From positions 62,001 through 126,000 of the forward strand of contig JAGYIP010000004.1 of assembly GCA_018402635.1 (NCBI GenBank): a stretch of 64,000 nt of DNA, written 5' to 3'. A program made the position numbers and the translations under genes. Shown here in pieces: positions 5,511 through 24,228 of this stretch. Each line of letters begins with the position of its first letter. Position 1 is the first letter of the stretch. The DNA comes from Burkholderiaceae bacterium. GTDB taxonomy: Bacteria > Pseudomonadota > Gammaproteobacteria > Burkholderiales > Burkholderiaceae_A. Below the pieces are notes generated by a model. The model made no database searches. It was given only the letters and a program-made list of their open reading frames with translations, and was not told where the DNA came from.

Positions 5511-6497
5511 ATGGCTGAATATCAAAACCTCTTTACCCAGGTGCAGGTCATTGGTCCGCTTGAGCAGGGCATTCCGCTCGATCGTCCCCGCGACACTGCC
5601 GAGCGGGTGGGCAAGCCCAGTCATTTCCACATCCTTGGCCGTCTCGGTAATGCCCAAATTGGTCCAATCTACCTTGGCTTTTTGGGCATTGCCTCGGCCT
5701 TTGCCTTCCTTGTTGGGTTCACGGCCATTGGCTGGAATTACCTGGTGCAGGTGAACTACAGCCCCATTGAGTTTGTTCGCCAGCTCTTCTGGCTGTCGGT
5801 TGACCCACCACCGCCTGCCTATGGGCTGCGAATACCGCCCTTAAATGAGGGCGGATGGTGGCTGTTCTCGGGCTTCTTTATTACCCTGTCTATTCTGCTT
5901 TGGTGGGTACGTATGTATCGCCGTGCGGTGCAGCTGAAAATGGGCACGCACGTGGCTTTTGCTTTTGCCGCTGCCATCTGGCTTTACCTGGTTCTGGGTT
6001 TCTTCCGCCCTGTGCTTATGGGCAGCTGGGGCGAGGCTGTGCCCTTTGGCATCTTCTCGCACCTTGACTGGACGTCTGCCTTCTCGTTGCGCTATGGCAA
6101 CCTGTTCTACAACCCTTTCCACATGCTCTCTATTGTCTTTCTGTATGGATCGGTCTTGCTTTTTGCCATGCATGGCGCCACTATTCTCGCGGTAAGTCGC
6201 TTTGGTGGTGAACGCGAAATTGAGCAGATTGTCGATCGCGGAACGGCCTCCGAGCGCGCTGCACTTTTCTGGCGCTGGACCATGGGCTTTAACGCCACAA
6301 TGGAGTCCATACACCGTTGGGCCTGGTGGTTTGCCGTACTCACCTGCATAACCGGGGGTATTGGTATTCTGCTGACAGGCACCGTGGTGGACAACTGGTA
6401 CCTGTGGGCGGTAAAGCATGGCGTTGCTCCTGCCTACCCTGCTGTTTGGGGCCCGGTCATTGATCCAGCGTTGGTCGACCCACAGCTAGCGAATTAA
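5511..6497 (+). CDS. pufM: Photosynthetic reaction center M subunit
   Basis: [23 protein letters not shown]...[30 protein letters not shown]... Confidence 0.97.
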
Positions 6498-6516
6498 TTG
6501 ATGATAGGAGCGTTTG

Positions 6517-7767
6517 ATGACTAAATATCCTCGACAGGAGTCTCACGCAGTGCCCATGGAAGAGGGTACGCGGTTGAGGCCAACCCCCGTGGCGAATTCT
6601 AAGAAGCAAGGGGCACTGGGGTGGCGTGGGCTTGTTATCGGCATGGCCATGGGCCTGGGGTTAATGGGGTGTGAGCGCCTACCTGTCGACGTTAATCAGG
6701 GTGGCTACCGCGGCACGGGCATGGAGCAGGTCGTCAACCCACGCATTGAGGCTGTGAAGCTGGCGGCCAATCAGGCCCCCCCCGCGCTTGAGCCGGTAGA
6801 AGAAGGTGGACCCAAGGCAAGTCAGGTTTATCAGAATGTGCAGGTCTTGGGCGATCTCTCGGTGGCGCAGTTCAACCGGCTGATGGTTGCCATGACCGCC
6901 TGGGTTTCTCCGGAACAGGGCTGCGCTTACTGCCATAACGTTCAAAACTTTGCCGATGACGGCCTCTACACCAAATTGGTGGCAAGACGCATGACGCAAA
7001 TGACCCAGACCATCAACGACCGTTGGCAGGCGCACGTGGGCCAGACTGGCGTAACCTGTTTCACCTGTCACCGAGGTCAAAACCTCCCTGAAAAGCGGTG
7101 GTTCACCGAGCCAGAAATGCAGATCGCTGGACGGCTTCTGGGTAACGATTCAGGCCAGAACCGCGCGGGTGTCGAGGCTGTGGCGAATTCCGATTTACCC
7201 TACGACCCGTACACGCCTTTCTTACTAGAGAGCAATCCCATTCGGGTCAATGGCACCACCGCGCTGCCCACTGGGAATCGCATGTCCACCAAGCAGACGG
7301 AATGGACCTACGCGCTCATGATGCACATGAGCGACGGTCTAGGGGTTAACTGCACGTACTGCCACAACACCCGGGCCATTGCCGAGTGGGAGCAAAGCCC
7401 TCCTGCCCGCGTCACCGCCTGGTATGGCATTCGAATGGTGCGTGAAATTAACAATGAGTTCATTACCGGGCTCACTCCTATTCACCCACCGAATCGACTC
7501 GGCGTCATGGGCGATATTGCCAAGGTGAACTGTGCCACCTGTCACCAGGGCGTGAACAAACCGCTTTACGGCGCCCAAATGCTCAAGGCACACCCCGAGC
7601 TCTCGGGCCCCAACGCACTTAAAGACGCTATGGAAATTCGGGGTCCTGGCAAGCCAATAGCTCCTCAGAGTCAAGGCCCTGAACCCACGCCCTCGCCAAC
7701 CTCTTTTCTGAAGGGTTCTGCGAGCACAGGGCAGCTTGAGGGCCATGCTGTTGCCCGAGCGAATTAA
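6517..7767 (+). CDS. pufC: Reaction center tetraheme cytochrome c subunit (lipoprotein)
   Basis: Lipobox-like MGLGLMGC; four CxxCH motifs CAYCH, CFTCH, CTYCH, CATCH; directly after pufM. Confidence 0.96.
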   Translation: MTKYPRQESHAVPMEEGTRLRPTPVANSKKQGALGWRGLVIGMAMGLGLMGCERLPVDVNQGGYRGTGMEQVVNPRIEAVKLAANQAPPALEPVEEGGPKASQVYQNVQVLGDLSVAQFNRLMVAMTAWVSPEQGCAYCHNVQNFADDGLYTKLVARRMTQMTQTINDRWQAHVGQTGVTCFTCHRGQNLPEKRWFTEPEMQIAGRLLGNDSGQNRAGVEAVANSDLPYDPYTPFLLESNPIRVNGTTALPTGNRMSTKQTEWTYALMMHMSDGLGVNCTYCHNTRAIAEWEQSPPARVTAWYGIRMVREINNEFITGLTPIHPPNRLGVMGDIAKVNCATCHQGVNKPLYGAQMLKAHPELSGPNALKDAMEIRGPGKPIAPQSQGPEPTPSPTSFLKGSASTGQLEGHAVARAN

Positions 7768-7847
7768 GGCGTTACAGCTTGCTATAGCAATTGGAATTCA
7801 TCTTGCACCGACTGGAAGTGAAGTCCTCCGGTGCTCTTTGCCTCTAG

Positions 7848-7907
7848 GCCCCTCCTAGGGGCATTTTTTTGACAAAAGAAAAGCTCCCTAGGGAGCTTTT
7901 CTTTTGT
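7848..7907. terminator. Tandem terminators between convergent pufC and hip, including a perfect 36-bp palindrome
   Basis: GCCCCTcctAGGGGCATTTTTTT then ACAAAAGAAAAGCTCCCTAGGGAGCTTTTCTTTTGT (7872-7907, perfect self-complement). Confidence 0.85.
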
Positions 7908-7928
7908 AATACCGAATGCAGCTTTAAT

Positions 7929-8255
7929 TTAGCTCTTAACCTGCTTGAAGTTTTTACACCATCCCGCTCTGGGTGTGTGCTGGTCACCAAAGAACGAGCA
8001 TGCTGCGTACGCGTCATTGTCTTTGCCATCCCAAAGCTGACACTTACTGCATTCCTGGCCCGTCTTGAACTTTCTGAAGTTTCGATGCGCCTTAGGGTCA
8101 ATTCCCTTTGCGTCAACAACAAAGCCCATTGATTTGGCGTAGCTGTCGTTGGGGTCAAGGCGGTTGCTCTGGGCCCGCACCCCCTGCAATGATGAAAAGG
8201 CTGCAGCGCCTGCAACAGCTTTAAGTATGAATACACGTCTTGAAACAGTTGTCAT
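7929..8255 (-). CDS. hip: High-potential iron-sulfur protein (HiPIP)
   Basis: MTTVSRRVFILKAVAGAAAFSSLQGVRAQ (Tat signal); cysteine pattern CSKCQLWDG...AACSFFGDQ...GWCKNF typical of HiPIP. Confidence 0.92.
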   Translation of the reverse strand: MTTVSRRVFILKAVAGAAAFSSLQGVRAQSNRLDPNDSYAKSMGFVVDAKGIDPKAHRNFRKFKTGQECSKCQLWDGKDNDAYAACSFFGDQHTPRAGWCKNFKQVKS

Positions 8256-8319
8256 TATCGTTCTCCGTGTTTGGGTCTTAAAAATTAAAGGTAATGAAAT
8301 GAATGGAGCCTTGAAAAAC

Positions 8320-8891
8320 TCAGTTGCCATACCGCACAAGCCTAACAAAAAGCTTTGAGTCGGAAGGGACTGCCCTTAACCCCTCGTGCCCAAAACTCAT
8401 TGCGTACCAAAGCGGCTCGTAGCCCCCAGAGGCCCTTGCACTGCTTGTCCAAAAGAAACTCGCAGGTGTACCAGGGAAGTTCTCTCGGCTAATTCGAACA
8501 CCCTCTGGGTTGAGACTGCTCGATGCTATGCGCGCAAGTTCTGTAAGGCTGGGAAGACGCCAGTCTTGATGAAAAGGTTCTGTTTGATTGATCTGCTGAA
8601 CAGCCTCGCGCGCCTGATCAAGGCTAAGGGCCAGGGCCCTTCCTTTACAACTCGTCAACGCCTCGTCCCACTGTTGACCAAGCGAACAACGCTTCCAGGT
8701 AATTTGGGCCGCGCGGTCTGTCAGGGTTCCGTCTGCGTTGTCAACAAACCGATTCTCGTTCATCTTGACAGCAATCAAACCGGCTTCCAATGGCTTGTGC
8801 TGAGCACCTGCCTGGGCGCCGGCCAGGCTTAAAAAACAGCTAGACCGAGCGCCGCTTGCTTTAATTGCAATGACAGGTGAGGCGTTGCCAT
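8320..8891 (-). CDS. Secreted DUF1566 (Lcl C-terminal-like) domain protein; apparent frameshift in the signal peptide
   Basis: MNENRFVDNADGTLTDRAAQITWKRC...WRLPSLTELARI...FWTSSARASGGYEPLWYAMSFGHEG. ATG at 8891 gives MATPHLSLQLKQAALGLAVF; one extra T in the A6/T6 tract at 8831-8836 would continue FLSLAGAQAGAQHKPLEAG, a coherent signal peptide. Confidence 0.65.
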
Positions 8892-8940
8892 AAACCCTGA
8901 AAGCAAGTGTCAGACAGGCTAAAAAAACTACAAATTCAAC

Positions 8941-9456
8941 TTACTCCCGAGTGTCTTTGCCAATCATGGAGGGCTTAGAAGGAAAACCCTTACCGTACTC
9001 AACACGAACGGGCGATGTCTGCCGTGATGCAAGGCCAGGCTCAATGGGCTTGCCCCGGTGCAGCTGAAAGGCATAGGCCTCCATTGCCAACATCTCCGGG
9101 CCCGTCACATCAAGGGCCTTGCCCGCCTGTGGATTCTCGATGCACCAGTTGATCATTTCCCTGAAGGTTGCGACGCGGTTGAACGCCGGAATGAACTTGG
9201 GAAACGTCTGTGGGTTAGCAGCAGCACCGTCGGGATGGCAGTTACCGCAGCCCAGCCCGTTGGTGCTCATTGAGGGTTTGCTTCCGTGCCAAAGGTCGTA
9301 GCCTTCTTTGGACACGGCCCACAAGGCCTTCTGTTGCTTATCGAGTTCGGCCTGCGTAAAAGGCTCGCGGGCCTGAACACTGCCTAACGAAAAAGCTGCT
9401 GTAAGGCCCACTGCACCGAGGGCTGTTAGCGCCCTGCTTGTAAAGGTTGTTTTCAT
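8941..9456 (-). CDS. Periplasmic monoheme c-type cytochrome
   Basis: MKTTFTSRALTALGAVGLTAAFSLGSVQA signal peptide; single CGNCH heme motif; FREMINWCIENPQAGKAL. Confidence 0.8.
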   Translation of the reverse strand: MKTTFTSRALTALGAVGLTAAFSLGSVQAREPFTQAELDKQQKALWAVSKEGYDLWHGSKPSMSTNGLGCGNCHPDGAAANPQTFPKFIPAFNRVATFREMINWCIENPQAGKALDVTGPEMLAMEAYAFQLHRGKPIEPGLASRQTSPVRVEYGKGFPSKPSMIGKDTRE

Positions 9457-9485
9457 CAAAGTCTCCTTAATTGACGAACACTGAA

Positions 9486-10541
9486 TTAGGCTTTGAAGCC
9501 GTTCTTCATCCATGGGGTAAGTGAATCTGCAAACGGCTGGTGTTGGACATTAATGCCGGCCGGGGTAATGTCTGCGTAGTAGCTACCCATTCCGTCGGCT
9601 TCATTGCCAGGGTCTGCCCGGTACTGTCGGCTCTGGGGGAAGGCAAGCTCGACATCCGGATAGGGCCAGGGCCATGACGTGCTCATTGCACCAACCGAAG
9701 ACATGTTGCCAATCTTGTTGTAAATGGTCTGGTGGACATGGCCATGGAAGGAGAACGTGTTCTCGAACCTGGCAAGCATGGCACGAATTTCCGCGCCATC
9801 GGACGTTCCGAAGCCCCAACGTGGGTAGTAGTCCCACAGAGGTGCGTGACTAAAGAGAACGATAGGCGTGTCGGTGGATTGCTTAGCGAGGTCTTTCTTG
9901 AGCCAAGCAAGCTGCTCAGCATGAATGCCCCACAGGCCTCCCCATGGTCCCTCAAGCATGGACATATGGGTCTGGCGCTCGACACCCGTCATTTTCTGGG
10001 CAGTCCAGAAGTCGTCAACAAGAATGTTATTCAGGCCGACAAAGTGCACGCCCTTGTGATCAAACGACCAGTACTCTTTACGTCCCTTGCGCTGACCAGA
10101 TTCAGGGTTGTTCGCACCGTAAAGGCCGTTCCAGCCTGTACCCATGTCAACGTACCAGTCGTGCTCACCTGGGATGATGACCATCTTGGACTTGATGTTT
10201 GAGAGGATCTTCTTGCCTTTTTCAAGCTGGTCCATCGTGCCGTCTTGGGCAATGTCGCCGCCGTAGAGCACGAAGTCAGGCTTAACAGGCAGGTTGTTCA
10301 CCTGCTCAATGGCATCCATCAACTGGGTGTCAAACTTGTGGTCTTTGAAGCTGTAGAGATGTGAATCGCTGATGACTGCAAATCGGAAAGGGGTGACCTT
10401 CTTTCCGGGCTGTGCATGCACTAGGTCAACAAGACCAAGGTTAACGCCGGCCGCGGTGGCCACCATGGTTGAAAGACCCGCTTTACCTGAAAACTGTAAA
10501 AACTCACGCTTACTGCTGTTTTCAATGTTGCTGTCTGCCAT
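9486..10541 (-). CDS. Exported calcineurin-like metallophosphoesterase
   Basis: KREFLQFSGKAG Tat-like leader; FRFAVISDSHLYS, VLYGGDIAQDG, GEHDWY, FSHAPLW, FHGHVH metallophosphoesterase motifs. Confidence 0.85.
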   Translation of the reverse strand: MADSNIENSSKREFLQFSGKAGLSTMVATAAGVNLGLVDLVHAQPGKKVTPFRFAVISDSHLYSFKDHKFDTQLMDAIEQVNNLPVKPDFVLYGGDIAQDGTMDQLEKGKKILSNIKSKMVIIPGEHDWYVDMGTGWNGLYGANNPESGQRKGRKEYWSFDHKGVHFVGLNNILVDDFWTAQKMTGVERQTHMSMLEGPWGGLWGIHAEQLAWLKKDLAKQSTDTPIVLFSHAPLWDYYPRWGFGTSDGAEIRAMLARFENTFSFHGHVHQTIYNKIGNMSSVGAMSTSWPWPYPDVELAFPQSRQYRADPGNEADGMGSYYADITPAGINVQHQPFADSLTPWMKNGFKA

Positions 10542-10604
10542 TTGAAACTCCTTTAATTAAAGACAACTCCCTCGATTGAAATAGTAGAACCATGTACTAA
10601 TTTC

Positions 10605-10687
10605 GTCTAGGACAAAAACATTAAGATTTGCTTAACAACCAATATATAAGCCAATCCGCATACATACACATTGTTTTTGTCCCAGAC
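10605..10687. promoter_or_regulatory. Inverted repeat pair upstream of the metallophosphoesterase operon
   Basis: GTCTAGGACAAAAAC (10605-10619) and GTTTTTGTCCCAGAC (10673-10687), 14/15 complementary. Confidence 0.45.
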
Positions 10688-10915
10688 AGAAACATGGGCA
10701 AAATTTAAGTTTCACCTAACTTCTTCGAAACCGGGTTTTCCCGTACGCATTAGAGCTATTTTGAAAGGAGTTTCTTACGGGTACTGTAAAGCCGCTCTTA
10801 TGAATGGGCGGACGCCCCTCTGGCTGGGCAAACGAGGGGCCGCAACCGCGGTAACCTACGTTCGTTTCCTGCTGCGAATAACCCTTAGCACCTATTGAGA
10901 TTCGAGGCTTTTGGG

Positions 10916-12055
10916 CTATTTGCCTTTGTTTTCGATCTTAAACGGGTTGACTTCCGCCACCTCGTCATAGGTTCTGGGGCCGCCTGCGTACGGTAGCCGT
11001 GGCTCAACAGCAAGAGAAGGGTAGTCGTTAAGCATGCTTATGCCATTGAGTGGCTTACCGACCCCCTTGTGGCAGGTTGCGCAGGCCACCTTCGGATAGT
11101 CGCCTGAGGCGTTCATTCGATATAGGGGTAGCAGGCTGCCCACAGAATGCAGATAGGTGCTGTTGATATCTCTGACCATCCGAATGCCATACCAGGCGGT
11201 AACACGCTGAGGGGAACTCTGCTCCCAGTTGGCCGCAGCCCGGGTGTTATGGCAGAAGGTGCAATTCACTCCTAAGGACTGACTCATGTAGATCATGAGC
11301 CCATAGGTGTGTTCGCTTTGCTTAACAGAGCGACGGTTCTCGCCAGCCAGCGCCCTTTCGCCCTGAACCCGAATGCTAGGGGAGTCTTTATCTTTTAGAA
11401 AAATGGTGAGCGGGTCGTAGGGCAGGGAAGTATTGCCAACGGTCTCGACGCCTGGATGGTTCTGCCCGAACCGATGCCCAAGCATGGCAAGCTGATCTTT
11501 CTCGTTACCAATAAATTCAAACCAATCGCCTGAGGGCACAGGCTGCCCGCGATGGCAGGTGTAGCAGGTTACGCCGGTGTTGCCCACGTGCTTTTTCCAA
11601 CTGTCGTTGATGTTGCGAGTCATCTGCAACATGTGCCTTGCGACAACCTTGGGGTATTTTTCATCGGAGGCAAGGTACTTAGGATTGTGGCAGTAGGCGC
11701 AGCCCTCTTCAGGCGAGACCCAGACAGTAAGGGCCTGCATAAGCCTTGAGAACTCTTGGGTGTTGAGGTCGGTGAGGACCTGGATATTGAGGTACTGATC
11801 TTTTGCAAGCTTTGGGGGGTTGGCTGGGTCGATCTCAGGGGGGGGCTCGGGCTCTGGAATGGCGTGAAGCGGTGCCTGCGCTCGCTGGGTCTTAGGGTCG
11901 TGGTTGAGCACCATGCCTACGCCTCGGTAGCCCAGTTGCTCGGGCTTTGTAGCCTCAACTTTTGAGCCACTAGCGGCCGTTAAAAGCGTAAGAAGAGCGA
12001 TGCCGACAATGCTCGCCAGCGCGGCGATTACGGGGATTAGAAACAGACGCTTCAT
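10916..12055 (-). CDS. Second PufC-like tetraheme cytochrome, N-terminal TM anchored
   Basis: Four CxxCH motifs CAYCH, CYTCH, CTFCH, CATCH; colinear with PufC (GYRGVGM, WVSPEEGCAYCHN, QSEHTYGLMIYMSQSLGVNCTFCHNTRA); no lipobox cysteine. Confidence 0.92.
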   Translation of the reverse strand: MKRLFLIPVIAALASIVGIALLTLLTAASGSKVEATKPEQLGYRGVGMVLNHDPKTQRAQAPLHAIPEPEPPPEIDPANPPKLAKDQYLNIQVLTDLNTQEFSRLMQALTVWVSPEEGCAYCHNPKYLASDEKYPKVVARHMLQMTRNINDSWKKHVGNTGVTCYTCHRGQPVPSGDWFEFIGNEKDQLAMLGHRFGQNHPGVETVGNTSLPYDPLTIFLKDKDSPSIRVQGERALAGENRRSVKQSEHTYGLMIYMSQSLGVNCTFCHNTRAAANWEQSSPQRVTAWYGIRMVRDINSTYLHSVGSLLPLYRMNASGDYPKVACATCHKGVGKPLNGISMLNDYPSLAVEPRLPYAGGPRTYDEVAEVNPFKIENKGK

Positions 12056-12273: not shown

Positions 12274-12777
12274 CTAGACAAAAGGAGCGTTCAGCACAAC
12301 CGTGGCAAGGTTTAACACCGCAGCAAAGCTCACCCAGGCAAGGTAGGGCCAAAGTAGTAGGGCAGCGCGTTTGTTGTAGCGGCTGGTGTGACGAATAAGC
12401 AAAACAATGGAGAGCCAAAGCACAACCACCTCGGCAAGTGCCCAGTCGGGCCGTTGCAGGTAAAAATAAAGCAGGCTCCAGCCCATGTTGGCCAGGCCAT
12501 TCAGCGCCCAAAGCAAAAGCAATTGCGCGCGACGGGCACTAAGGCTAGGCTCGTCTTCGGCCGCAGTGCGCCAGGCCAGCACGCCCGACCAGGCCATAAG
12601 AATAAAAAGAATGGTCCAGGCTGGGCCGAATAAAAGATCGGGCGGCTTGAACCAGGGCTGCTCTAGGTTGTAGTACCAGTCACCAAGTACGGTAAGGCCG
12701 CCACCAATGGCCGCCACCCCAAAGGCAAGGCCCAGGGCCACCAACCAATCGGTGGCCGTGCCTCGCGGAGCCATCAT
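12274..12777 (-). CDS. tspO: TspO/MBR family protein
   Basis: WYYNLEQPWFKPPDLLFGPAWTILFILMAWSGVLAW and ALNGLANMGWSLLYF motifs; in PGC as in other purple bacteria. Confidence 0.92.
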   Translation of the reverse strand: MMAPRGTATDWLVALGLAFGVAAIGGGLTVLGDWYYNLEQPWFKPPDLLFGPAWTILFILMAWSGVLAWRTAAEDEPSLSARRAQLLLLWALNGLANMGWSLLYFYLQRPDWALAEVVVLWLSIVLLIRHTSRYNKRAALLLWPYLAWVSFAAVLNLATVVLNAPFV

Positions 12778-13991
12778 GCTCGGGCAAAGCCGAGCAGGTG
12801 GGCCAGATCTTTAATGAAAATACGAAGATGTGCCATGGGCTTGCGTCGGACGAGTCGTTTGTTCATGTAGGATTCAAAGGTGATTTGTTGCACGTCTTTG
12901 TCTTTGCAAATTTTAACGAACTGTTCGCGACGTTTGTCATTGCCGTACCAGAATTTTTGCAATAACCCCAAAACCCAGAAGACCCGACCATGCTCTTTCA
13001 TGAATCGCTTGCGTGCGCTGGCAAGCGCCCTAGGTGAGTCGGTGGCAAGTTTTTCCAAGCAGGCCTCGGCCGCTAGGCGCCCGCCAAGCATGGCGTAATA
13101 AATGCCCTCCCCCGATGCTGGGGCAACAACCCCCGAGGCATCGCCGGCCAGCACCACGTTGCGGCCGTTATCCCAGCGTGGCAGGGGCTTTAAAGGAATG
13201 GGCGCGCCTTCGTGGCGAATGGTCTCTAGGTTGCTAAGGCCTGCCTGCTCGCGCAGACGGGCCGTAGCGGCCTTTAAAGAAAAGCCCTTGTCCATGCTGC
13301 CCGTGCCCACACTTAGATGCGCCCCATGGGGAAAGACCCAGCCGTAGAAGTCGGGTGAAATGGTGCCGTTGTAAATGACATCGCAGCGGTCCGCGTCGTA
13401 GTCGGGATGGCTGCTTTGGCGTGTTTCGGGCTCGGGCGATTTTAAAATCTCGTGATAAGCAAACACGAAGACGCCCTTGTCGGCACCGGCAATGGCCTGG
13501 GCCGCGACCTTTGACTTCGCGCCATCGGCACCAATAAGCAGCGCACAGGTGACCGTCATGTGCCGCTCGGCCGTGTCGTTGGCATGGTCGCGCACCATAA
13601 GCTTCACCTTAAGGCCATCGTCGGTCTCGTGAAGACTCTCAAACCGACCAATGAGTCGCCTGGCACCATTGGACTGGGCGCGGTTGCGAAGCCATTCGTC
13701 AAAGGGGCCGCGATCCACCATTCCAACAAAGCCGTTCTCAATGGGAATGTCCACCTTCTTGTCGCTTGGCGAGACCATGCGCGCGCAACGAATCTTTGCA
13801 ACAAGCATCTCTTGTGGAATCTCGAAGTCTTGTATGGCCCGAGGGGGGATGGCGCCCCCGCAGGGCTTGATGCGTCCGGCCTTGTCAACAAGCAGAACGC
13901 GCCGGCCCGCGAGGGCAAGGTCGTTTGCAGCTGTGGCGCCAGCAGGGCCTCCACCAATGACAACCACTTCGTAATCGAGCATCGTCTGCAT
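12774..13991 (-). CDS. bchP: Geranylgeranyl diphosphate/bacteriochlorophyll reductase
   Basis: MLDYEVVVIGGGPAGATAANDLALAGRRVLLVDKAGRIKPCGGAIPP... Confidence 0.94.
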   Translation of the reverse strand: MQTMLDYEVVVIGGGPAGATAANDLALAGRRVLLVDKAGRIKPCGGAIPPRAIQDFEIPQEMLVAKIRCARMVSPSDKKVDIPIENGFVGMVDRGPFDEWLRNRAQSNGARRLIGRFESLHETDDGLKVKLMVRDHANDTAERHMTVTCALLIGADGAKSKVAAQAIAGADKGVFVFAYHEILKSPEPETRQSSHPDYDADRCDVIYNGTISPDFYGWVFPHGAHLSVGTGSMDKGFSLKAATARLREQAGLSNLETIRHEGAPIPLKPLPRWDNGRNVVLAGDASGVVAPASGEGIYYAMLGGRLAAEACLEKLATDSPRALASARKRFMKEHGRVFWVLGLLQKFWYGNDKRREQFVKICKDKDVQQITFESYMNKRLVRRKPMAHLRIFIKDLAHLLGFARA

Positions 13992-14001
13992 GGTGCTACT
14001 C

Positions 14002-15435
14002 CTAATTCGCAAGCCCGCTGGGGGCAGGGTGTGAAGGGGACAGGGCTGTACGAGCCCCTTGAGGGTTGAGGGCTGATGGCGCCTGCGGGGCCTGCAAAGC
14101 TGAGGCCTGGGTCATGGTGTTGCCTGGGCTGGAGGGCGACTCTCGTATCTGACTTGCAAGCCTTGCCGCAACAATAAAGAGCAGGGCCTCAAGGCCAAAG
14201 ACGGTTGCGTAGGCCAAGGCGGTGTCGTTAATAAGGGCACGGCTTATGTCTGAAAGGCCTGTACCTAAGAGCCCGCCCGCTCCAAAGGCAAGGGCCTGGG
14301 CCGCACCCCAAAGGCCCATGCGTGTCCCTTCGCGCCGTGCGCGGCCCTCGTTGGCAAGCCGCATCATGGAGGCAATGGCCGCGATGGAGAAGGCGCCGTT
14401 GGCCACACCGAGCAGCATCACATTCCAATTAAGCGGCCAGCCCGGGCCATAAACGCCCGCTGCCACAAGGCCCGCCAGTGCGAAGCCCGAGGCAATGCAG
14501 CCAGAGATGGTCCAGAACTTTAATGAGCCAAGCCTTCGCCCAAAAAGTCGGCCACTGCCTGCCGCCGCAACCACCAGCATTCCAATAAGAATGCCCGAGT
14601 GCTGCAGTCCGGAGAGCTTGGTGGACTCGCCGGGCGTGTAGCCAAAGACACTTCCTGCGAATGGCTCAAGAATGAGGTCTTGGGCACTAAAGGCAAGCAT
14701 GGAGACAAAGACGAAGACAGTGAAGTGGCGTGCCTCGGGCTCGTCCCAGACCTGACGCAAGGCGGTTCGGAAGTTAAGCTCGGGCTCGGGCTTGTGCGCG
14801 GCGGCGTGAGGCTCGGCCTGCCGCTCAAGCCCTGCGAGCAGCAGTGCGGTTGCAACAATGGCAAGGCCCGTAACGGTTGCGGCAACGGCAAGCAGCCGGT
14901 CCTCGGAGTAGGGGTCGAGGAAGTGGCCCGCCAGGCCAGCCGTAATGGCAAAGCCAGCAATCATGAGCAGCCAGACCAGGGTGGCAGCCCCCGCGCGTCG
15001 GGTGTCATCAACCCGCTTGGCAAGCAGAACCAGCACCGATGTGCCGCAGGCGCTTACCCCCAGGCCAATGAGGAAAAAGGCAACGAAGGAAAGGGCGATG
15101 CCAAGACTTAAGGCCGTGGACATGAGCACCACCGCGTAGGCACCTAAAAGCCCGCCCAGGGCAAGTATGACCATGCCACCCAAGATGAAGGGGCTGCAAC
15201 GGCCGGCAATGTCGGAGCCAAAGCCCATGCGGGGGCGCAGAATTTGAACCAGGTAATGCATGGCGACAAGCACACCGGGTAGCAGGGCGGGCAGGGCAAG
15301 TTCCACCACCATTATTCGGTTCAAGGTGCTGGTGGCCAGCACCACCACGCCACCTAGACAGGCCTGAATAAGGCCAAGCCTTGCAATGGCAAACCAGCTA
15401 AATCCTTGTGGGCCTTGCCGATGTCCCTGGCTCAT
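14002..15435 (-). CDS. PucC/LhaA family MFS (BCH-adjacent 'orf428'-type)
   Basis: 12-TM-like ORF between bchP and bchG; LGLIQACLGGVVVLATSTLNRIMVVELALPALLPGVLVAMHYLVQILRPRMGFGSD. Confidence 0.88.
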   Translation of the reverse strand: MSQGHRQGPQGFSWFAIARLGLIQACLGGVVVLATSTLNRIMVVELALPALLPGVLVAMHYLVQILRPRMGFGSDIAGRCSPFILGGMVILALGGLLGAYAVVLMSTALSLGIALSFVAFFLIGLGVSACGTSVLVLLAKRVDDTRRAGAATLVWLLMIAGFAITAGLAGHFLDPYSEDRLLAVAATVTGLAIVATALLLAGLERQAEPHAAAHKPEPELNFRTALRQVWDEPEARHFTVFVFVSMLAFSAQDLILEPFAGSVFGYTPGESTKLSGLQHSGILIGMLVVAAAGSGRLFGRRLGSLKFWTISGCIASGFALAGLVAAGVYGPGWPLNWNVMLLGVANGAFSIAAIASMMRLANEGRARREGTRMGLWGAAQALAFGAGGLLGTGLSDISRALINDTALAYATVFGLEALLFIVAARLASQIRESPSSPGNTMTQASALQAPQAPSALNPQGARTALSPSHPAPSGLAN

Positions 15436-15496
15436 GGACGCACCTTGGGGTTTGACTGCAGATAAGCCGTTGTAATTTCTGCGCCCATGACTCGAC

Positions 15497-16426
15497 TTAG
15501 CCTCCCAGCCCCGCAGTCGCTTGTAACGATCGCAGCCCAAAGGCCGAGACCATCATGCCAAGCACAAACAAAGGCACCCCAAAGCCGCTGTAGTAAAGCG
15601 CGCGGTCAACGGGCTTTTTCAGAAACCAGGCCATAAGCGCAAACTGGGCAAGCAGCAGAACGAAAACGCCAAGGGCGTGCAGGGGCAGCTGCCAAAGGCC
15701 AAGAAGTGAAATAACAGCGATTTGTGGAAGCGCCATGACAAGACAGGCTGTGAAGGCTGCGCGCTGCGGGCCAAGCTGCACGGGCAGAGACCTTACGCCC
15801 ATAACCGAGTCGCCCTTAATGGACTTAAAGTCGTTGAGGGTCATGATGCCGTGGGCGCCAAGGCTGTAGAGCAGGGCAAGCACCACCGAGCGGGTCTCGG
15901 GGAAGGCGCCGCCCGCCATGACAGCTGCACCTGTTATCCATGCCAGGCCTTCGTAGGAAAGGCCGCAGGCGGCATTTCCTAGCCAGCCGTTTTGCTTGAG
16001 CCGAATAGGCGGCATACTGTAGGCCCAGGCCAATAGAAGCCCCAAGGCGGCGGCACCAAAGCCCCATGGCCCAAGGGCTGTGGCCACCAGCAACGAAACA
16101 ACTGTCCAGCCAAGGGCAATGTAGAGCCCCCACCTTCCGGGGATTCGACCCGAGGGAATGGGCCGGTTGGGCTCGTTGATGGCGTCAACATGCCGATCGA
16201 ACCAGTCGTTTACGGCCTGGCTGGTGGCACAGACCATTGGCCCTGCAAGGGCAATACCAATTACCGCAAGAAGCCAGTGGTCGGAGACGCTGGCCCCTGA
16301 GGCCACCACGCCGCAGGCAAAGGCCCACATGGGTGGAAACCAGGTAATGGGCTTAAAGAGCTCGAGAACGGCAGAAAAAGAGGGCTGGCCGAGGTCTGCC
16401 GAGCTGGTCGGATGAATAATTCCCAT
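15497..16426 (-). CDS. bchG: Bacteriochlorophyll synthase
   Basis: UbiA-type prenyltransferase: LELFKPITWFPPMWAFACG, NDWFDRHVDAINEPNRPIPSGRIPG. Confidence 0.94.
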   Translation of the reverse strand: MGIIHPTSSADLGQPSFSAVLELFKPITWFPPMWAFACGVVASGASVSDHWLLAVIGIALAGPMVCATSQAVNDWFDRHVDAINEPNRPIPSGRIPGRWGLYIALGWTVVSLLVATALGPWGFGAAALGLLLAWAYSMPPIRLKQNGWLGNAACGLSYEGLAWITGAAVMAGGAFPETRSVVLALLYSLGAHGIMTLNDFKSIKGDSVMGVRSLPVQLGPQRAAFTACLVMALPQIAVISLLGLWQLPLHALGVFVLLLAQFALMAWFLKKPVDRALYYSGFGVPLFVLGMMVSAFGLRSLQATAGLGG

Positions 16427-16442
16427 AAACTGCATTTTGTAC

Positions 16443-16474
16443 TTGACAAATGGAACCGTCAATTGCAATTTACA
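16443..16474 (+). promoter_or_regulatory. Candidate PpsR box / promoter between bchG and crtIB
   Basis: TTGACA at 16443; CGTCAATTGCAATTTACA at 16457-16474 (one mismatch from TGT-N12-ACA); TTGAC-N10-GTCAA. Confidence 0.5.
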
Positions 16475-16498
16475 GTTTCTGACTAAAGGAAAACGCTT

Positions 16499-19102
16499 AT
16501 GCACGCCGTAGTGATTGGATCGGGCTTTGGAGGCCTGGCGGCTGCCCTTCGTCTTTGTTGCAAGGGCTACCGTGTAACCGTACTCGAGCGGCTTGAGGGC
16601 CCCGGGGGCAGGGCCTTTGTTTATAAACAGGACGGCTTCACCTATGACGCGGGGCCCACCATTATTACGGCCCCCTTTCTTTTTGAAGAGCTCTGGGCCT
16701 TGTGTGGAAGGCGGTTTTCAGACGATGTCGACCTTCGGCCCATGTGGCCGTTCTACCGTATTCGGTTTGATGACGGCAGCCACTTTGACTACTTTGGCGA
16801 GACCGAAGCCATGCGCCGGGAAATTACCAGGCTTGTCGGGGCCTCGGAAGTGGCAGGCTACGACGCCTTCATGCGCGAGGCCATGGTCTGCCTGAAGCTC
16901 GGCTACGAAGAACTCGGTACAACGTCCTTTGTAAGCCTTGTGGACCTTATTGCAGCCATGCCCTCAATGGTGCGTATGCAGGCCTGGAACACCATCTACA
17001 GCATGGCTCAGCGTCATTTTAAGAACGACAAACTGCGCCAGGTTTTTAGCTTTCATCCGCTTCTTATTGGTGGCAATCCGTTTGCGGTTACCCAGGTCTA
17101 CAGCCTCATCCCAGCCCTTGAGCGGGAGTACGGGGTGCATTCGGCCATGGGCGGTACGGGCGCCATTGTGCAGGCCCTTGCCCGCCTGCTTGAAGACCAG
17201 GGCGCAGCCATTCGCTACCAGGCCGAGGTGAGTCGTATTCTTTTAGAAGGCCGGCGTGCCGTGGGCGTGGAATTGGCCGATGGCGAGCAGATTCGCGCCG
17301 ACATTGTGGTCTCGAATGCCGATGCGGCCAACACCTATCGCAAGCTTTTACCCAATGCTGCGCGTCGTGTCTGGACAGACGCCAAGGTAGAGCGGGCCGC
17401 CTATTCCATGGGTCTTTTTGTCTGGTACTTCGGCACCCGGCGTCGTTACGAAGACATTCCGCATCACATGATTCTTCTAGGGCCCCGCTACAAGGGGCTG
17501 CTGCAAGATATCTTCAAGCATAAGTTGCTTAGCAAAGACTTCAGCCTGTATCTGCATCGGCCAACGGCCACCGACCCCGCGCTCGCCCCCGAGGGCTGCG
17601 ACACGTTTTATGTTCTGTCGCCCGTGCCGCATCTTGATGCCGATGTCGACTGGGTGCAGACCGCCGAGCCCTACAGGCAGGCCATTGCCGCCTACCTTGA
17701 GCAGTCGGTGTTGCCAGGGCTTTCGGCCGAGGTCTGCAGCTCGAAGATCATGACCCCACTCGATTTTGAGTCTAGGCTCTGGGCCTATAAGGGCGCGGCC
17801 TTTGGAATGGAGCCAAGGCTGACGCAAAGCGCATGGTTTCGGCCGCACAACCAGAATGAAGACATTGAGGCTCTGTACATGGTGGGGGCAGGCACGCATC
17901 CAGGCGCAGGCGTGCCCGGCGTTCTTAGCTCGGCCAAGGCCTTTGATAGCCTTATTAAGCCCGTGGGTCGGCCCAGCAACGGCAGGCGTCATTCTGCGCC
18001 CTGGGTCTTGCCCACTCCCACGCCCACTCCCACTGCGGCGTCACAGCCCCAGGCCCAGACGCACCACGCACGGGTGTCGGAAGAAGAATTGATGCGTGGT
18101 GGGTCGAAGTCTTTCTTTGCGGCCTCAAGGCTTTTGCCCAAAACAGTTCGCAATGCCGCAGTCGATCTCTATGCCTACTGCCGCGTGGCCGACGATCGGG
18201 TGGATGAATCCATGGCAAGCACGCAGGTTATGCAAGAACTGCATAGTCGGCTAAACACCATTTACACAGCCCAGTCGCCAGCAGACCTACCGATGGTGGA
18301 CAAGGCGTTCTGGCGTGTGGTGAGTTGCTACAAAATTCCCAAGGCTGTTCCTCTGGCGCTGCTTGAGGGCTTTGAATGGGACGCCCAGGGCCGCGTCTAC
18401 GAGACCCTTGAGGATGTCTTTGACTACAGCGCGCGGGTGGCAGGCACCGTGGGCGCCATGATGGCCCTTGTTATGGGCGTGCGTGAGGCGCGCCCAATGG
18501 CCCGAGCCTGCGAGCTGGGTGTGGCCATGCAGCTCACCAACATTGCACGCGATGTTGGTGAAGACGCCCGCATGGGACGGCTCTACCTTCCGCGCCAGTG
18601 GATGCGTGAAGAGGGCATGGATCCGCAGGCCTGGCTGGCTGCGCCTTGCTTTACCCCGGCGCTGGCCCGCGTGGTCGAAAGGCTTTTGCAAGAGGCCGAT
18701 GGCTTGTATAAGCGCGCTGAAGAGGGTGTGGGCTTTTTGCCCCGGGCATGCAGGCCGGCCATTATGGCGGCCCGCCATATTTATTGCGACATAGGCCGCG
18801 AAATTGGCAAGGCAGGTTTTAACTCCATCGATCAGCGTGCCGTTGTCAGTTCGTCAAGAAAAATTCAACACCTCTTACACTGCCTTCCTGCGGCCCTTAT
18901 GGCGCCACGTATGCCGCGCGGCCATAAGCCTCTTGCTGCAATTGCCTTTCTTGTGGAGGCCTCGGGCATTTCGATGCGCAGCCGACCTCCGCGCACGGTG
19001 GCCGAGAAGGCAGGCTGGATGGTGGATTTATTTCTTACCCTTGCCGAGCGTGAACGCCAGGAGCGACACGAAGGCGGTCAACCACTCACTGGAGGACGAT
19101 GA
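16499..19102 (+). CDS. Fused phytoene desaturase (CrtI) - phytoene synthase (CrtB)
   Basis: Single 867-aa ORF: N-terminus MHAVVIGSGFGGLAAALRLCCKGYRVTVLERLEGPGGRAFV...GAGTHPGAGVPGVLSSAK (CrtI); linker APWVLPTPTPTPTAASQPQAQTHHA; C-terminus GGSKSFFAASRLLP...DLYAYCRVADDRVDE...QLTNIARDVGEDARMGRLYLP (CrtB). Confidence 0.95.
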   Translation: MHAVVIGSGFGGLAAALRLCCKGYRVTVLERLEGPGGRAFVYKQDGFTYDAGPTIITAPFLFEELWALCGRRFSDDVDLRPMWPFYRIRFDDGSHFDYFGETEAMRREITRLVGASEVAGYDAFMREAMVCLKLGYEELGTTSFVSLVDLIAAMPSMVRMQAWNTIYSMAQRHFKNDKLRQVFSFHPLLIGGNPFAVTQVYSLIPALEREYGVHSAMGGTGAIVQALARLLEDQGAAIRYQAEVSRILLEGRRAVGVELADGEQIRADIVVSNADAANTYRKLLPNAARRVWTDAKVERAAYSMGLFVWYFGTRRRYEDIPHHMILLGPRYKGLLQDIFKHKLLSKDFSLYLHRPTATDPALAPEGCDTFYVLSPVPHLDADVDWVQTAEPYRQAIAAYLEQSVLPGLSAEVCSSKIMTPLDFESRLWAYKGAAFGMEPRLTQSAWFRPHNQNEDIEALYMVGAGTHPGAGVPGVLSSAKAFDSLIKPVGRPSNGRRHSAPWVLPTPTPTPTAASQPQAQTHHARVSEEELMRGGSKSFFAASRLLPKTVRNAAVDLYAYCRVADDRVDESMASTQVMQELHSRLNTIYTAQSPADLPMVDKAFWRVVSCYKIPKAVPLALLEGFEWDAQGRVYETLEDVFDYSARVAGTVGAMMALVMGVREARPMARACELGVAMQLTNIARDVGEDARMGRLYLPRQWMREEGMDPQAWLAAPCFTPALARVVERLLQEADGLYKRAEEGVGFLPRACRPAIMAARHIYCDIGREIGKAGFNSIDQRAVVSSSRKIQHLLHCLPAALMAPRMPRGHKPLAAIAFLVEASGISMRSRPPRTVAEKAGWMVDLFLTLAERERQERHEGGQPLTGGR
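18011..18034 (+). repeat. Pro-Thr-coding 12-bp tandem repeat in the CrtI-CrtB linker
   Basis: CCCACTCCCACG CCCACTCCCACT encoding PTPTPTPT. Confidence 0.85.
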
Positions 19103-19490: not shown

Positions 19491-20500
19491 TTAGGTTCGT
19501 CGGGGCATACGCCAGGGAAGCATCAGCCGAACAAGTTTTGATCGAACCCGTGGCAAGAAAAGTGTCTCGTGCATGGCATTTACCTCTTGCCCTAAAAGCG
19601 TCTGACGCACCACAGAGCGCATGTAAAACGGTGTGTCCTCAAGGGTCTGCAGAAGGCTTGCTGCCGGGGCCTTTGGGTCCGACCGTATTGAACGGCCAAC
19701 ACCCCAGATGCCTTTTGTTAAGGACTGGCGTGGATCAAGCTCGAAGGGCTCGACCTCGCCATTTGTTTTGAACCTTGCAGTAATAAGCCGGGAGCTCTGG
19801 TCGTTGGAATAGTGCACGGTGCGGTCGTGCAACTGGTTGAACTCGGCGGCTCGCGCCGATGGCGTGGCCTGTCGATCGCGGACATCGTAAATAACGGCTG
19901 TGCTTCCATCACGTAAAAGCGCTCGCGACCAGTCCCATTCATGAAAGGGAACCTCGATGGGCTCATCGCCCTCGTTGGAGTCCAGATAGGCATGGCCCGA
20001 CCATTTCAGACCCGGCAGGGGAAGTCCACCTCGATACGGGCCGAGGGCGCAAGCGGCCCCCAACGGTGCCTGCCTTGGGCATCGATGACCTGCTGGTAAT
20101 GAAAGAACTGATTGGCCCGAATTCGCATCTGGCCCTTGACCTTCATAGGAACGGGTACAGACCATTCGTTAATGTCAATAACCAGCTCATCACCCGTCCA
20201 GCGCAGCTGGCTTGGGCCCACGGTGAACTCGGTGCTTGAGCGGTGCAGAAAACGCCTGCCGCGCTCGGTCATGGTCCAGCGTTTTTTTCCTTTGGAATAA
20301 AGCGCCAGGTTAATGCAGACATGGTTCTCGGGGTCACTGGTCTGAGGCTGCGCCCTTGCCCAGTGGTAGTAGCTTGAAAAGACACTGCCCACAAAGGCAA
20401 TCATGGTGATGCCATGTTCGCCGTCGTCGCTTAGTCCATCGACATACCACCAGAGATAACCACCCGCTGGGACCTTCTGGTCGAATCGAGGTGTGCCATC
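19491..20500 (-). CDS. crtC: Hydroxyneurosporene synthase/hydratase CrtC, split by an apparent 1-nt frameshift; start uncertain
   Basis: RFDQKVPAGGYLWWYVDGLSDDGEHGITMIAFVGSVFSSYYHWARAQ...LAPSARIEVDFP in one frame (ORF 20006..20773) continuing as PLPGLKWSGHAYLDSNEGDEPIEVPFHEWDWSRA in another (ORF 19491..20165). Confidence 0.85.
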
Positions 20501-22032
20501 AGGGCTGCGGCCGCCAGTCGGCCCGAGAGGCTGGCCATGGGAACCCCCGCTCCCGGGTGCACGCTGCCCCCCGCTAGAAAGAGCCCCGGCACTGGTGTTC
20601 GGTTCGTGGGCCTCTGAAAGGAGGACATCCATCCGTGGGGGGCCATTCCATAAAGAGCCCCCGCGGAGGCAGGAAACATCTGGTGAAAGTCTTGCGGTCG
20701 GCCAACCTGCACAGCCTGGGGCTCCACCGTAAGACCCACCTGTTGCAGCTGGGCCAAGACGCGTTTCTGACATACGCTGATTTCCTCTTCGAGAAGGGTC
20801 TGACGGTCTGCGCGTGCGGGCGCGTTGATAAGCATAAAGAGTCGCTCTGCCTCGGGCTTGGCCGCATGCACAGGCCTGTCTTCATGGTCTTGTGCCTGTG
20901 GCTGTTCGGCCGCGCTGGAGCTGGCCGGCCCAAAAGGCCCGCGGTCGTGGGCGCAGATGTAGACCGTGGGTCGGGCTGGCAGCCTGCCTTGGGAAAAGAC
21001 AGACTGAAACTCGTCTTCGTAGGGTGTCTTCTGAAAGACAACATTGTGGAAGTCCAAGGCCATGCCTTGGGTGCGGGCCACCATGGAAAAGGTAAGGGCC
21101 GACAAGGACCTTGGGTAGAGCCCTTCGGTGTTTGGCACGGCCGCCTTTGCTGGACTTCCCAGTAGACCCTGATGCAGGGCGGCCGCCTCGCCGTTGAAAA
21201 TTACGGCATCGGCCAAGAGCCTTTGGCCGTTGCTAAGCTCTACGCCCTTCGCACGTCCTTGCTCGATAAGAATTTCGTTTACCTGTGCATTGCATTGAAT
21301 GTCTACACCAAGCTTTTGCGCAGCCCGCGCAAGCCCCAGGGCCAGGGCCTTGATGCCGCCGCGTGCGGCCCAGACCCCACGCTGCTCGACATAGGCAATA
21401 AGCATAAGCGTGGCCGGTGCCTGCCATGGCGAGCCCCCGCAGTAAGTGGCATAGCGGGCAAAGAGTTGTCGAAGCCGCGGGTCGTGAAAGTATCGGCCCA
21501 GACTTTTCCAAAGGCTTGCAAAAGGCCCAAGTCCTGCCAAGAGGCTTAGGCCACGAAGGCCAATGTCTTGGCTCATAGAGCTCATGGTGGGGCGCTCGGC
21601 GCGAATGTAGGCAGCCTCAAGGGCATGGTAGACACGCCGGGCCTCTTGGCTAAAGGCTCGAAAACGAACGGCCTCTGCGAGGCCTGAGAATTCTGCAATG
21701 GCATCGGCCGATGCGGCCTCCTCGGCAAAGAGGTCGAGCCGCTCCTCGGCTGACCAGGCATGGCGGGCGATGACGGGCAGGGCCTTGAGTTCAACAAAAT
21801 CTTCAAGCCTTAGGCCTGCACCGCCAAGCAGGTCTTCAAAGACCCAGCGCATCGTGATGACGGTGGGTCCTGAGTCCATGGCCTGACCGGCAACAACTTT
21901 CTGATGGTTTTTACCCCCAACCTGCGCATCCTTTTCAAGCAGGCTGACGCGTACCCCTTGGCTGGCAAGGTCGATGGCAGCGGCAAGGCCGGCCATGCCT
22001 GCGCCCACAATCACAACCCGGCGTTCAGCCAT
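20431..22032 (-). CDS. crtD: Hydroxyneurosporene/methoxyneurosporene desaturase
   Basis: MAERRVVIVGAGMAGLAAAIDLASQGVRVSLLEKDAQVGGKNHQ...GLFLAGGSVHPGAGVPMASLSGRLAA. Confidence 0.9.
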   Translation of the reverse strand: MAERRVVIVGAGMAGLAAAIDLASQGVRVSLLEKDAQVGGKNHQKVVAGQAMDSGPTVITMRWVFEDLLGGAGLRLEDFVELKALPVIARHAWSAEERLDLFAEEAASADAIAEFSGLAEAVRFRAFSQEARRVYHALEAAYIRAERPTMSSMSQDIGLRGLSLLAGLGPFASLWKSLGRYFHDPRLRQLFARYATYCGGSPWQAPATLMLIAYVEQRGVWAARGGIKALALGLARAAQKLGVDIQCNAQVNEILIEQGRAKGVELSNGQRLLADAVIFNGEAAALHQGLLGSPAKAAVPNTEGLYPRSLSALTFSMVARTQGMALDFHNVVFQKTPYEDEFQSVFSQGRLPARPTVYICAHDRGPFGPASSSAAEQPQAQDHEDRPVHAAKPEAERLFMLINAPARADRQTLLEEEISVCQKRVLAQLQQVGLTVEPQAVQVGRPQDFHQMFPASAGALYGMAPHGWMSSFQRPTNRTPVPGLFLAGGSVHPGAGVPMASLSGRLAAAALMAHLDSTRRSQRVVISGGMSMD

Positions 22033-22822
22033 TGTTGGATGCCTGCTGAAGGTGGGCCTGACCCAGGCCGGGCTGCTTGAGAAAGCGCTGACCCTGCCAC
22101 TGGCCTTCGAGCCGCAAAGGATGGAATCGAACGAACATGGACTCGGAGAAAAACTTCTGGCCGTAGGCCGCCTCAATGGCGCGCTGATGGGCGCCACTGT
22201 GGGCATAGGCGTCCATGGCAGCCTGGTCCTTCCAAAGGCTGAATGTGGCCTGGCGCAAAAGCGGCGCCTCGCCAAGACCTACGGCAAGAAGGCAGCCCTG
22301 AGCCTTGGCGAGGTCGTCTTCGGCATCGGGGGATTGGGCCCAGAACCTGCGGGCCTTCAAGGGTCGAATGCTTGCTCGGGTAAGGGACGCAACCGAGCAT
22401 TCAAGGCCTGGCCTTGAAGCAAGCCTTGGGGCTTCATTTAATGCCTGCGCAAGCTCAACGGTATCAACTGGCTTTGCCTGAGCGGGTGGCTCGAGATGAA
22501 AGCCCGACCACTGGCCGCGGCAGGAGACTGGACTGAGCAGAGCAGCGAAGAACTCGTCGGAGCGATCCCTATAAGCCTTGACCTGCGGCGCGTTTTCTAA
22601 AAAGTTGTTGGCTGCCTCGGGGCTGCTAAATGCGGTGAAGAGGCCTTGATGGTCAAGACCGGGCTTGAGCCCAAAGCCGCCGTGCTCGCCGCTTCCCAAG
22701 ACTTTTTGAAAGACCAGGCCAGGCCAGGCGGCAGGCCCAAAGGCAGACTTCACCAGCCGAGAGACTGCCCAGCCCACGGCAGAGGGCCGAAGGCGCGACA
22801 GGACAACCACCACCGTGTGCAC
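22025..22822 (-). CDS. crtA: Spheroidene monooxygenase
   Basis: ATFSLWKDQAAMDAYAHSGAHQRAIEAAYGQKFFSESMFVRF; overlaps the crtD start by 8 bp. Confidence 0.88.
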   Translation of the reverse strand: MHTVVVVLSRLRPSAVGWAVSRLVKSAFGPAAWPGLVFQKVLGSGEHGGFGLKPGLDHQGLFTAFSSPEAANNFLENAPQVKAYRDRSDEFFAALLSPVSCRGQWSGFHLEPPAQAKPVDTVELAQALNEAPRLASRPGLECSVASLTRASIRPLKARRFWAQSPDAEDDLAKAQGCLLAVGLGEAPLLRQATFSLWKDQAAMDAYAHSGAHQRAIEAAYGQKFFSESMFVRFHPLRLEGQWQGQRFLKQPGLGQAHLQQASNNG

Positions 22823-22827
22823 GGGGC

Positions 22828-24228
22828 TTAATCCTCGTCGGAGTCGGGCCCCTCGATGCCGTAGCGACGCAGCTTGACGTAGAGGCTCTGTCGAGAAAGA
22901 CCAAGCATGTCAGCAGCCGAGGCTCGGTTGTTTTTGGTGATTTTTAATGCGGCTTCGATGCAGAGTTTTTCAATGAGGTCGACCGTTTCGCCAACAATTT
23001 CGCGCAGCGGCATACGGCCCACAAGGCTGGTGAGGTCTTGGTTCGAGCGCGGCCGTGAGGCCTGGTCGAGCCTGCCCTCAAGCCGTCGGCCCACGTCGCG
23101 AATGACAAAGGCAAGAAAGGGCTGGTCGTCGCTTTCAACAGAGACCCCTGAAATTTCAACGGGCACCACAAGCCCGGCATGGCCGATGAGCTGGGTTGAG
23201 AAAAGCCTTACGGGCCCACCCTGTGAGAGGCTGTTGGTCATGACAAGAAGGTCGGTGTTGGCGCGTCCTAGCCAATGATTCAAAGGCTCGCCAATGACCT
23301 GGCCTGCATGCACCATTTGAATCATTTCAACAAAGGCGGGGTTGGCACTTCGAATAATGCCTTTGGTGTCGGTTAAGACCAGTCCATCGCTAAACTGACG
23401 CACGGCCTCAAGCAGTGCCGTGTCTTCGCCGGGATGCGGCTTTTCGGAATCGATGCGCACCATGAAGACCGTGTCGGACTCTTGCCGCAGGTAGCTCACT
23501 AGAACCCTGGCTGGGCCCTCGTGCTTAACAAACCGCAGAGTGACCTCGGCGGGCCTGCCTGAACTTGCAACCTGTTGAAGGGTGCTGTGCAAGGCCGAGG
23601 TTGCGCGGTCGGATAAGAAGGCCTCGATGGCCTCGCCAATAATGGACTGGCGGTCTTTTTGAAGGTACTGTCCGCCGGCACGGTTGGCTTCGATGATTTG
23701 ATGAGAACGTGCGCTGATAAGCAACACCGGGTCGTGGACGAGATCGAAGAGCATTCGAAACTGCCCCTCAACGCCGCGAAGTCGCAGGTAGTCGCGCTCC
23801 ATAAGCTGTTGGGCTTCCACCAGCCTTGCCTGCAGCGAGGCAACAGGCCGAAGGTCGCGACCAATGGCCACCATCTGCCCCTCTTTGCCGATGCGAACAA
23901 GGGAAAAGAGTATGGGTATTTCTTCGTCTTGCTCGCTGAGCTGATTAATGTGCCGCCAGCGGGCATCAGGCTTTCCAGCCTGTGCTTCGCGCAGCATTTC
24001 TTCAATTTTGGGGCGGCTCTCCGATGTAACTACGTTCGCCCAGGCCTTGCCAACCCAGCCCTGCGCGCGACTGGGCTGCCAGTCGTTGCTGCCTGTAATG
24101 GCCTGGCGAATCACGCCCTGGGAGTCGATAACTAAGGTAATGTCGGCAGCGGCTGTAACGAGTGCAGCACTCTCGTCAGCATCAAGGCCAGCAAGTCCCT
24201 TGCCTTTAGATTGTTCGTTGTAGCCCAA
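22828..24228 (-). CDS. ppsR: PpsR/CrtJ transcriptional repressor (PAS domains plus Fis-type HTH)
   Basis: N-terminal PAS-like modules and C-terminal KITKNNRASAADMLGLSRQSLYVKLRRYGI; adjacent to aerR/ppaA. Confidence 0.92.
   Translation of the reverse strand: MGYNEQSKGKGLAGLDADESAALVTAAADITLVIDSQGVIRQAITGSNDWQPSRAQGWVGKAWANVVTSESRPKIEEMLREAQAGKPDARWRHINQLSEQDEEIPILFSLVRIGKEGQMVAIGRDLRPVASLQARLVEAQQLMERDYLRLRGVEGQFRMLFDLVHDPVLLISARSHQIIEANRAGGQYLQKDRQSIIGEAIEAFLSDRATSALHSTLQQVASSGRPAEVTLRFVKHEGPARVLVSYLRQESDTVFMVRIDSEKPHPGEDTALLEAVRQFSDGLVLTDTKGIIRSANPAFVEMIQMVHAGQVIGEPLNHWLGRANTDLLVMTNSLSQGGPVRLFSTQLIGHAGLVVPVEISGVSVESDDQPFLAFVIRDVGRRLEGRLDQASRPRSNQDLTSLVGRMPLREIVGETVDLIEKLCIEAALKITKNNRASAADMLGLSRQSLYVKLRRYGIEGPDSDED

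Follow-up and report, generated by a model that had tools for sequence, protein, structure and literature searches.

Fungal CrtYB (e.g., that of Xanthophyllomyces) is a carotenoid fusion enzyme that includes phytoene synthase. Its partner domain is lycopene cyclase, whereas the partner in the gene described here is a desaturase. A natural CrtIB was reported in 2023 from rhodopsin operons of Verrucomicrobiota ('Ca. P. phototrophica' ISCC53 PR-1; PMC10284914), and the thraustochytrid CrtIBY, reported in 2018, is trifunctional and active in yeast (PMC5924542; PMC10016063). The thraustochytrid enzyme shares the CrtI-CrtB order within one polypeptide with the present gene, but it is eukaryotic, has a third lycopene cyclase domain, and yields beta-carotene. 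In the photosynthesis clusters of purple bacteria (e.g., the Rubrivivax, Limnohabitans, and Polynucleobacter loci), orthologous domains occur in the same order, but as two genes that overlap or lie a few dozen bases apart.

The stretch analyzed here (64,000 nucleotides of the Burkholderiaceae contig JAGYIP010000004.1, hereafter the window) contains a gene in which CrtI and CrtB are joined in one frame within a bacteriochlorophyll photosynthesis cluster. Compared by description, the Verrucomicrobiota CrtIB belongs to retinal/rhodopsin operons, whereas the fusion in the window derives from photosynthetic-type crtI and crtB. Searches of the open-access literature, subscription papers and preprints lying outside that scope, turned up no CrtIB described from a bacteriochlorophyll photosynthesis cluster, and the present locus is the first case found here of an architecture that was itself already known. 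Many described bacterial proteins of this kind, which would have spoken against an initial sequence-only reading, were not found, but the novelty of the fusion is lower than that reading implied, as the kind is known (PMC10284914, PMC5924542). The explanation that we favor, with a probability of about 0.82, is a bifunctional CrtIB of single origin, in which an ordinary CrtI and an ordinary CrtB are tethered by a flexible, disordered linker and serve the carotenoid pathway of the photosynthesis cluster. The locus represents an independent case of the same two carotenoid enzymes fused in the same order.

The fused crtIB gene

The crtIB gene (positions 16499-19102 of the window, + strand) runs from an ATG at 16499 to a TGA at 19100-19102 without internal stops and encodes 867 amino acids, with CrtI first and CrtB after it in one uninterrupted frame. 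The phytoene desaturase domain (16505-17959, residues 3-487) was matched over its full length by the CrtI family profile TIGR02734 (603 bits against a cutoff of 238, E=4.3e-181), and sequence comparison with solved structures matched it to Pantoea CrtI (4DGK, E=7.9e-148). The FAD motif (GSGFGGLAAA, residues 7-16) is intact, and GAGTHPGAG (residues 463-471) constitutes the C-terminal motif of the domain.

The phytoene synthase domain (18083-18964, residues 529-822) gave a full-length match with the squalene/phytoene synthase profile PF00494 on residues 533-785 (236 bits against a cutoff of 26, E=7.4e-70), and among solved structures it was matched to the phytoene synthase 5IYS (E=1.7e-29). Both Asp-rich motifs (DDRVD, residues 565-569, and DVGED, residues 685-689) are intact. 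The domain scored 368 bits with NF045921 (E=4e-110), a model named for the Rhodobacter type, and did not reach its equivalog cutoff of 500. The assignment to CrtB is based on PF00494, the Asp-rich motifs, the gene order, and the phylogenetic tree, in which the domain clustered with CrtBs of photosynthesis clusters. Between the two domains lies a Pro/Thr/Gln-rich linker (17960-18082, residues ~488-528) that is predicted to be disordered and contains the run PTPTPTPT. No lycopene cyclase domain was matched by the profile searches in the 867-amino-acid protein.

These coordinates and family matches agree with the sequence-only reading, which had recognized a single frame with complete CrtI and CrtB parts separated by a Pro-Thr linker. 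The same reading had remarked that the desaturase-first order reverses the order of the pathway. The order is real, but it is not puzzling in itself, being the ancestral gene order crtI-crtB retained in the fusion.

The genome containing the window (G000; 1.96 Mb in 12 contigs, 83% complete) has homopolymer errors elsewhere in its assembly, and the fusion therefore merited suspicion. The frame of the neighboring crtC (carotenoid 1,2-hydratase) region (19491-20773, - strand; NF045922 matched on profile positions 1-124 only) is broken by a 1-nt homopolymer difference, where one C is missing from a C5 run (CCCC instead of the CCCCC of genome G006). This gene is intact, with 427 amino acids, in G005 and G006, and the break is probably a sequencing error or else very recent. 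On contig C7 of the same assembly (276000-283000, L138), hpnD is split across frames between hpnE-like and hpnC-like genes, probably by an indel error. An indel or a missed stop codon of this kind might likewise have merged two normally separate genes in the case of crtIB. However, the same unbroken frame was found in two independent genomes of the genus, G006 (97% identical, 865 amino acids) and G005 (90% identical, 868 amino acids), where synonymous divergence reaches about 1. An artefact of assembly or sequencing is ruled out by the agreement of the three genomes and is scarcely conceivable. The concern that the linker might conceal a frameshift or a stop is thus answered by the open frames of G005 and G006, in a comparison of assemblies rather than of reads. 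We confirmed that the CrtIB fusion is genuine.

Distribution and origin of the fusion

The best 80 loci of the contig search included 76 with crtB beside crtI, and none of these 76 pairs was fused. This result rules out a widespread CrtIB in purple bacteria and bears out the earlier statement that the two genes are usually adjacent but separate. Among 11 genomes of the genus, three carried the fusion, six carried separate genes, and two had no close match. Relatives of the organism were mostly metagenome-assembled genomes of Burkholderiales, several of them from lakes or ponds.

The nearest unfused relative is G001 (82% identity in CrtI and 71-74% in CrtB). At its junction, the crtI stop and the crtB start overlap as ATGA, and crtB, which is in another frame, has a Pro/Ser-rich N-terminal extension. 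The fused clade lacks this ATGA overlap and shows a 4-nt alignment gap beside it; the gap, the exact position of which is uncertain, brings crtI and crtB into one frame. In the trees, the three fusions formed one clade that was sister to the unfused G001, with support of 100/99 for CrtI and 100/100 for CrtB, which indicates that the genus fusion had a single origin, in the ancestor shared by these three sister species. The overlap would have been lost through a small frame-changing deletion, by which the operon pair would become one frame. In five other species, including Plesiocystis pacifica (L045, L046, L047, L048, and L049), crtI and crtB are in frame with a single stop codon between them, suggesting that fusion is a short step.

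Wider surveys covered samples of 369 genomes of the class, 399 of the order, and 399 of the phylum, and yielded two further fusions. More may exist, as the surveys are samples and the large searches scored two candidates per genome. The fusion of G534, a member of Burkholderiales from another family, is complete (810 amino acids) and likewise consists of CrtI and CrtB with a short linker, with 42% identity to the CrtIB of the window over 809 columns. It differs in having a rhodopsin-operon setting and a separate origin. The G534 operon (L141, 5424-11752) has the order rhodopsin-crtE-crtIB-crtY-blh, in which crtE was read from sequence only. The fusion of G315 is a partial gene (L037, C3:2-1948, - strand) cut by a contig end; its match to CrtI sets in no earlier than around residue 55, and the CrtI N-terminus is out of frame. 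It was seen in one of 25 genomes of its family and could represent misbinned or transferred DNA. A single clade uniting the genus fusions with those of G534 and G315 was rejected by the AU test (p=1.6e-5 for CrtI and 1.7e-12 for CrtB), indicating that the genus fusion arose independently of these rhodopsin-type fusions.

Thirty-two other long-frame candidates (11 + 3 + 18) from the order and phylum searches were each read, and none was fused. In the plasmid collection, the top matches included no fusion, and the genes there were annotated separately.

Selection, tethering, and phytoene supply

Both domains are under purifying selection, with dN/dS between G000 and G005 of 0.054 for CrtI (dS 0.74) and 0.050 for CrtB (dS 1.06). 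The linker diverges freely (dN 0.39 in the same comparison), yet it remains open and in frame, and its only clear indel is a clean 6-nt in-frame deletion in G006. In a simple simulation, the probability that a drifting linker would acquire no stop was ~0.35, so the open linker is weak evidence by itself. The stronger point is that the crtB start region has been lost in all three species while the protein is still tightly constrained. These results suggest that CrtIB is probably bifunctional and functional. We infer that it is translated as one polypeptide, that it is enzymatically active, and that the tether has an effect. The C-terminal CrtB domain would convert two geranylgeranyl diphosphates to phytoene, which the FAD-dependent CrtI domain at the N-terminus would desaturate for a pathway that is probably of the spheroidene type. 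The tether would impose an obligatory 1:1 stoichiometry and co-localization at the membrane, rather than form a sealed substrate tunnel.

Several other explanations bear on the translation and the retention of this gene. An internal start at Met532 might also, or even mainly, give free CrtB, leaving the fused protein as a by-product. The junctions of G000 and G006 have no ATG in any frame ahead of the in-frame Met at codon 530-532, which is the chief candidate for initiating a free CrtB. Met532 (LMRGGSK) lies just ahead of the CrtB core, and the unfused CrtB of G008 begins only six residues upstream. The Shine-Dalgarno match of G006 is fair at -6.0 kcal/mol, the median of the best crtB starts in 105 unfused loci being -5.8 kcal/mol. 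However, the sites of G000 and G005 are weak (-3.5 and -2.7 kcal/mol), so that strength is not conserved, and the Met is also present in most unfused proteins, which means that its conservation is no pointer to initiation. We regard such a two-product gene as improbable. A neutral origin deserves more weight and is quite possible, although we would not bet on it: the loss of a stop between overlapping operon genes would have been tolerated, and drift would have fixed it in a lineage with small genomes, without functional consequence. The five species that are one stop codon away from fusion, and the restriction of the genus fusion to one shallow clade, are consistent with this scenario, but the fusion persists across species with near-saturated synonymous sites and arises independently elsewhere too.

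The sequence-only reading had instead proposed that the fusion exists to pass phytoene directly from CrtB to CrtI. The same pair has been fused repeatedly and independently (in the genus clade, G534, Verrucomicrobiota, and thraustochytrids), which suggests an advantage of proximity, and synthetic fusions of carotenoid enzymes are cited as raising pathway efficiency (PMC10284914). The AlphaFold2 model of the fusion, built from a 20-row alignment, shows two well-folded domains (pLDDT mostly 85-95) and a linker of low confidence (residues 491-529, pLDDT about 30), and with a pTM of 0.57 it predicts no confident orientation of the domains. In a Foldseek search, the CrtI fold was supported by matches to the carotenoid desaturases 4REP and 4DGK, and only desaturase-like folds occurred among the 50 matches listed. 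A disordered linker of ~40 residues without a predicted fixed arrangement of the domains would be better pictured as holding a tethered pair than as part of a built-in tunnel. Against channelling, it also counts that chance fusions are more frequent between adjacent genes than between distant ones, and that tight channelling would starve a second CrtI of G000, whose gene lies with crtY, blh, and rhodopsin but lacks a companion crtB. Direct transfer of phytoene as the reason for the fusion is accordingly doubtful in our view, and the tethered bifunctional enzyme remains the preferred reading. With fused and unfused sister species and one host that has a competing second desaturase, phytoene channelling should be testable in a natural system.

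The second CrtI belongs to a gene set on contig C7 of G000 (L038, 6000-24000), in which rhodopsin (10093-10842), crtI (8252-9760), crtY (7036-8286), and blh (6137-7330) all lie on the - strand. The rhodopsin was identified with PF01036 (Bac_rhodopsin, E=5e-39), crtI shares 47% identity with the CrtI of the window, and crtY is a lycopene-cyclase-like gene. Neither crtB nor crtE is among the genes of this set. A polyprenyl synthase gene upstream in the photosynthesis cluster of G000 is likely crtE. A genome-wide search with PF00494 in the 83% complete assembly detected no second crtB; the fused gene was accompanied only by hpnC/hpnD-like genes, and these SQS_PSY genes adjoin an hpnE-like gene. 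Rhodopsin was found in one of the 11 genomes of the genus, that of G000, and a binning error is possible for C7.

Dual phototrophy has already been described (PMC7701988), and judging from these genes, G000 is a potential dual phototroph. Unless the missing 17% of the genome conceals a crtB, retinal synthesis must rely on the fused enzyme for its phytoene or for a later intermediate, which makes tight channelling unlikely. An extended proposal is that one CrtIB supplies all phytoene, both to the bacteriochlorophyll photosystem and, by leakage, to the crtI-crtY-blh-rhodopsin set that lacks crtB. We consider this proposal speculative and rather unlikely; if it is true, the fusion would divide the flux between two light-harvesting systems.

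Neighboring photosynthesis genes

The window harbored various genes of bacteriochlorophyll and carotenoid synthesis around crtIB, all on the - strand. Divergent from crtIB lies bchG, encoding bacteriochlorophyll synthase (15497-16504; TIGR01476, E=7e-103); the GTG listed as its start overlaps the beginning of crtIB, and translation more likely begins further on. It is accompanied by genes for a PucC-family membrane protein (14002-15540; PF03209, E=1e-91) and geranylgeranyl reductase (bchP, 12774-14012; TIGR02023, E=2.9e-152). On the other side, in addition to the crtC region, we found crtD for hydroxycarotenoid 3,4-desaturase (20431-22275; NF045637, E=6e-184, above the cutoff), for which the listed start, a TTG, probably lies too far upstream, and a crtA-like gene for spheroidene monooxygenase (22025-22822; NF045923, E=8e-45, under the equivalog cutoff). 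The presence of crtA, crtC, and crtD as neighbors suggests a spheroidene-type pathway.

A gene for a PpsR/CrtJ regulator was located at 22828-24228 (- strand; TIGR02040, E=6.7e-135). The count of PpsR-type TGT-N12-ACA sites was not above chance, and none was found at crtIB. An inverted repeat, TTGAC-N10-GTCAA (16443-16462), lies between bchG and crtIB; its position is kept in G005 and G006, and it is possibly a regulator site or a -35 element. Additionally, the window contained two pufC-like genes for reaction-centre cytochromes on opposite strands, one at 6514-7767 (+ strand), judged from its sequence only, and one at 10916-12055 (- strand), which was matched by NF040706 (E=2e-126).
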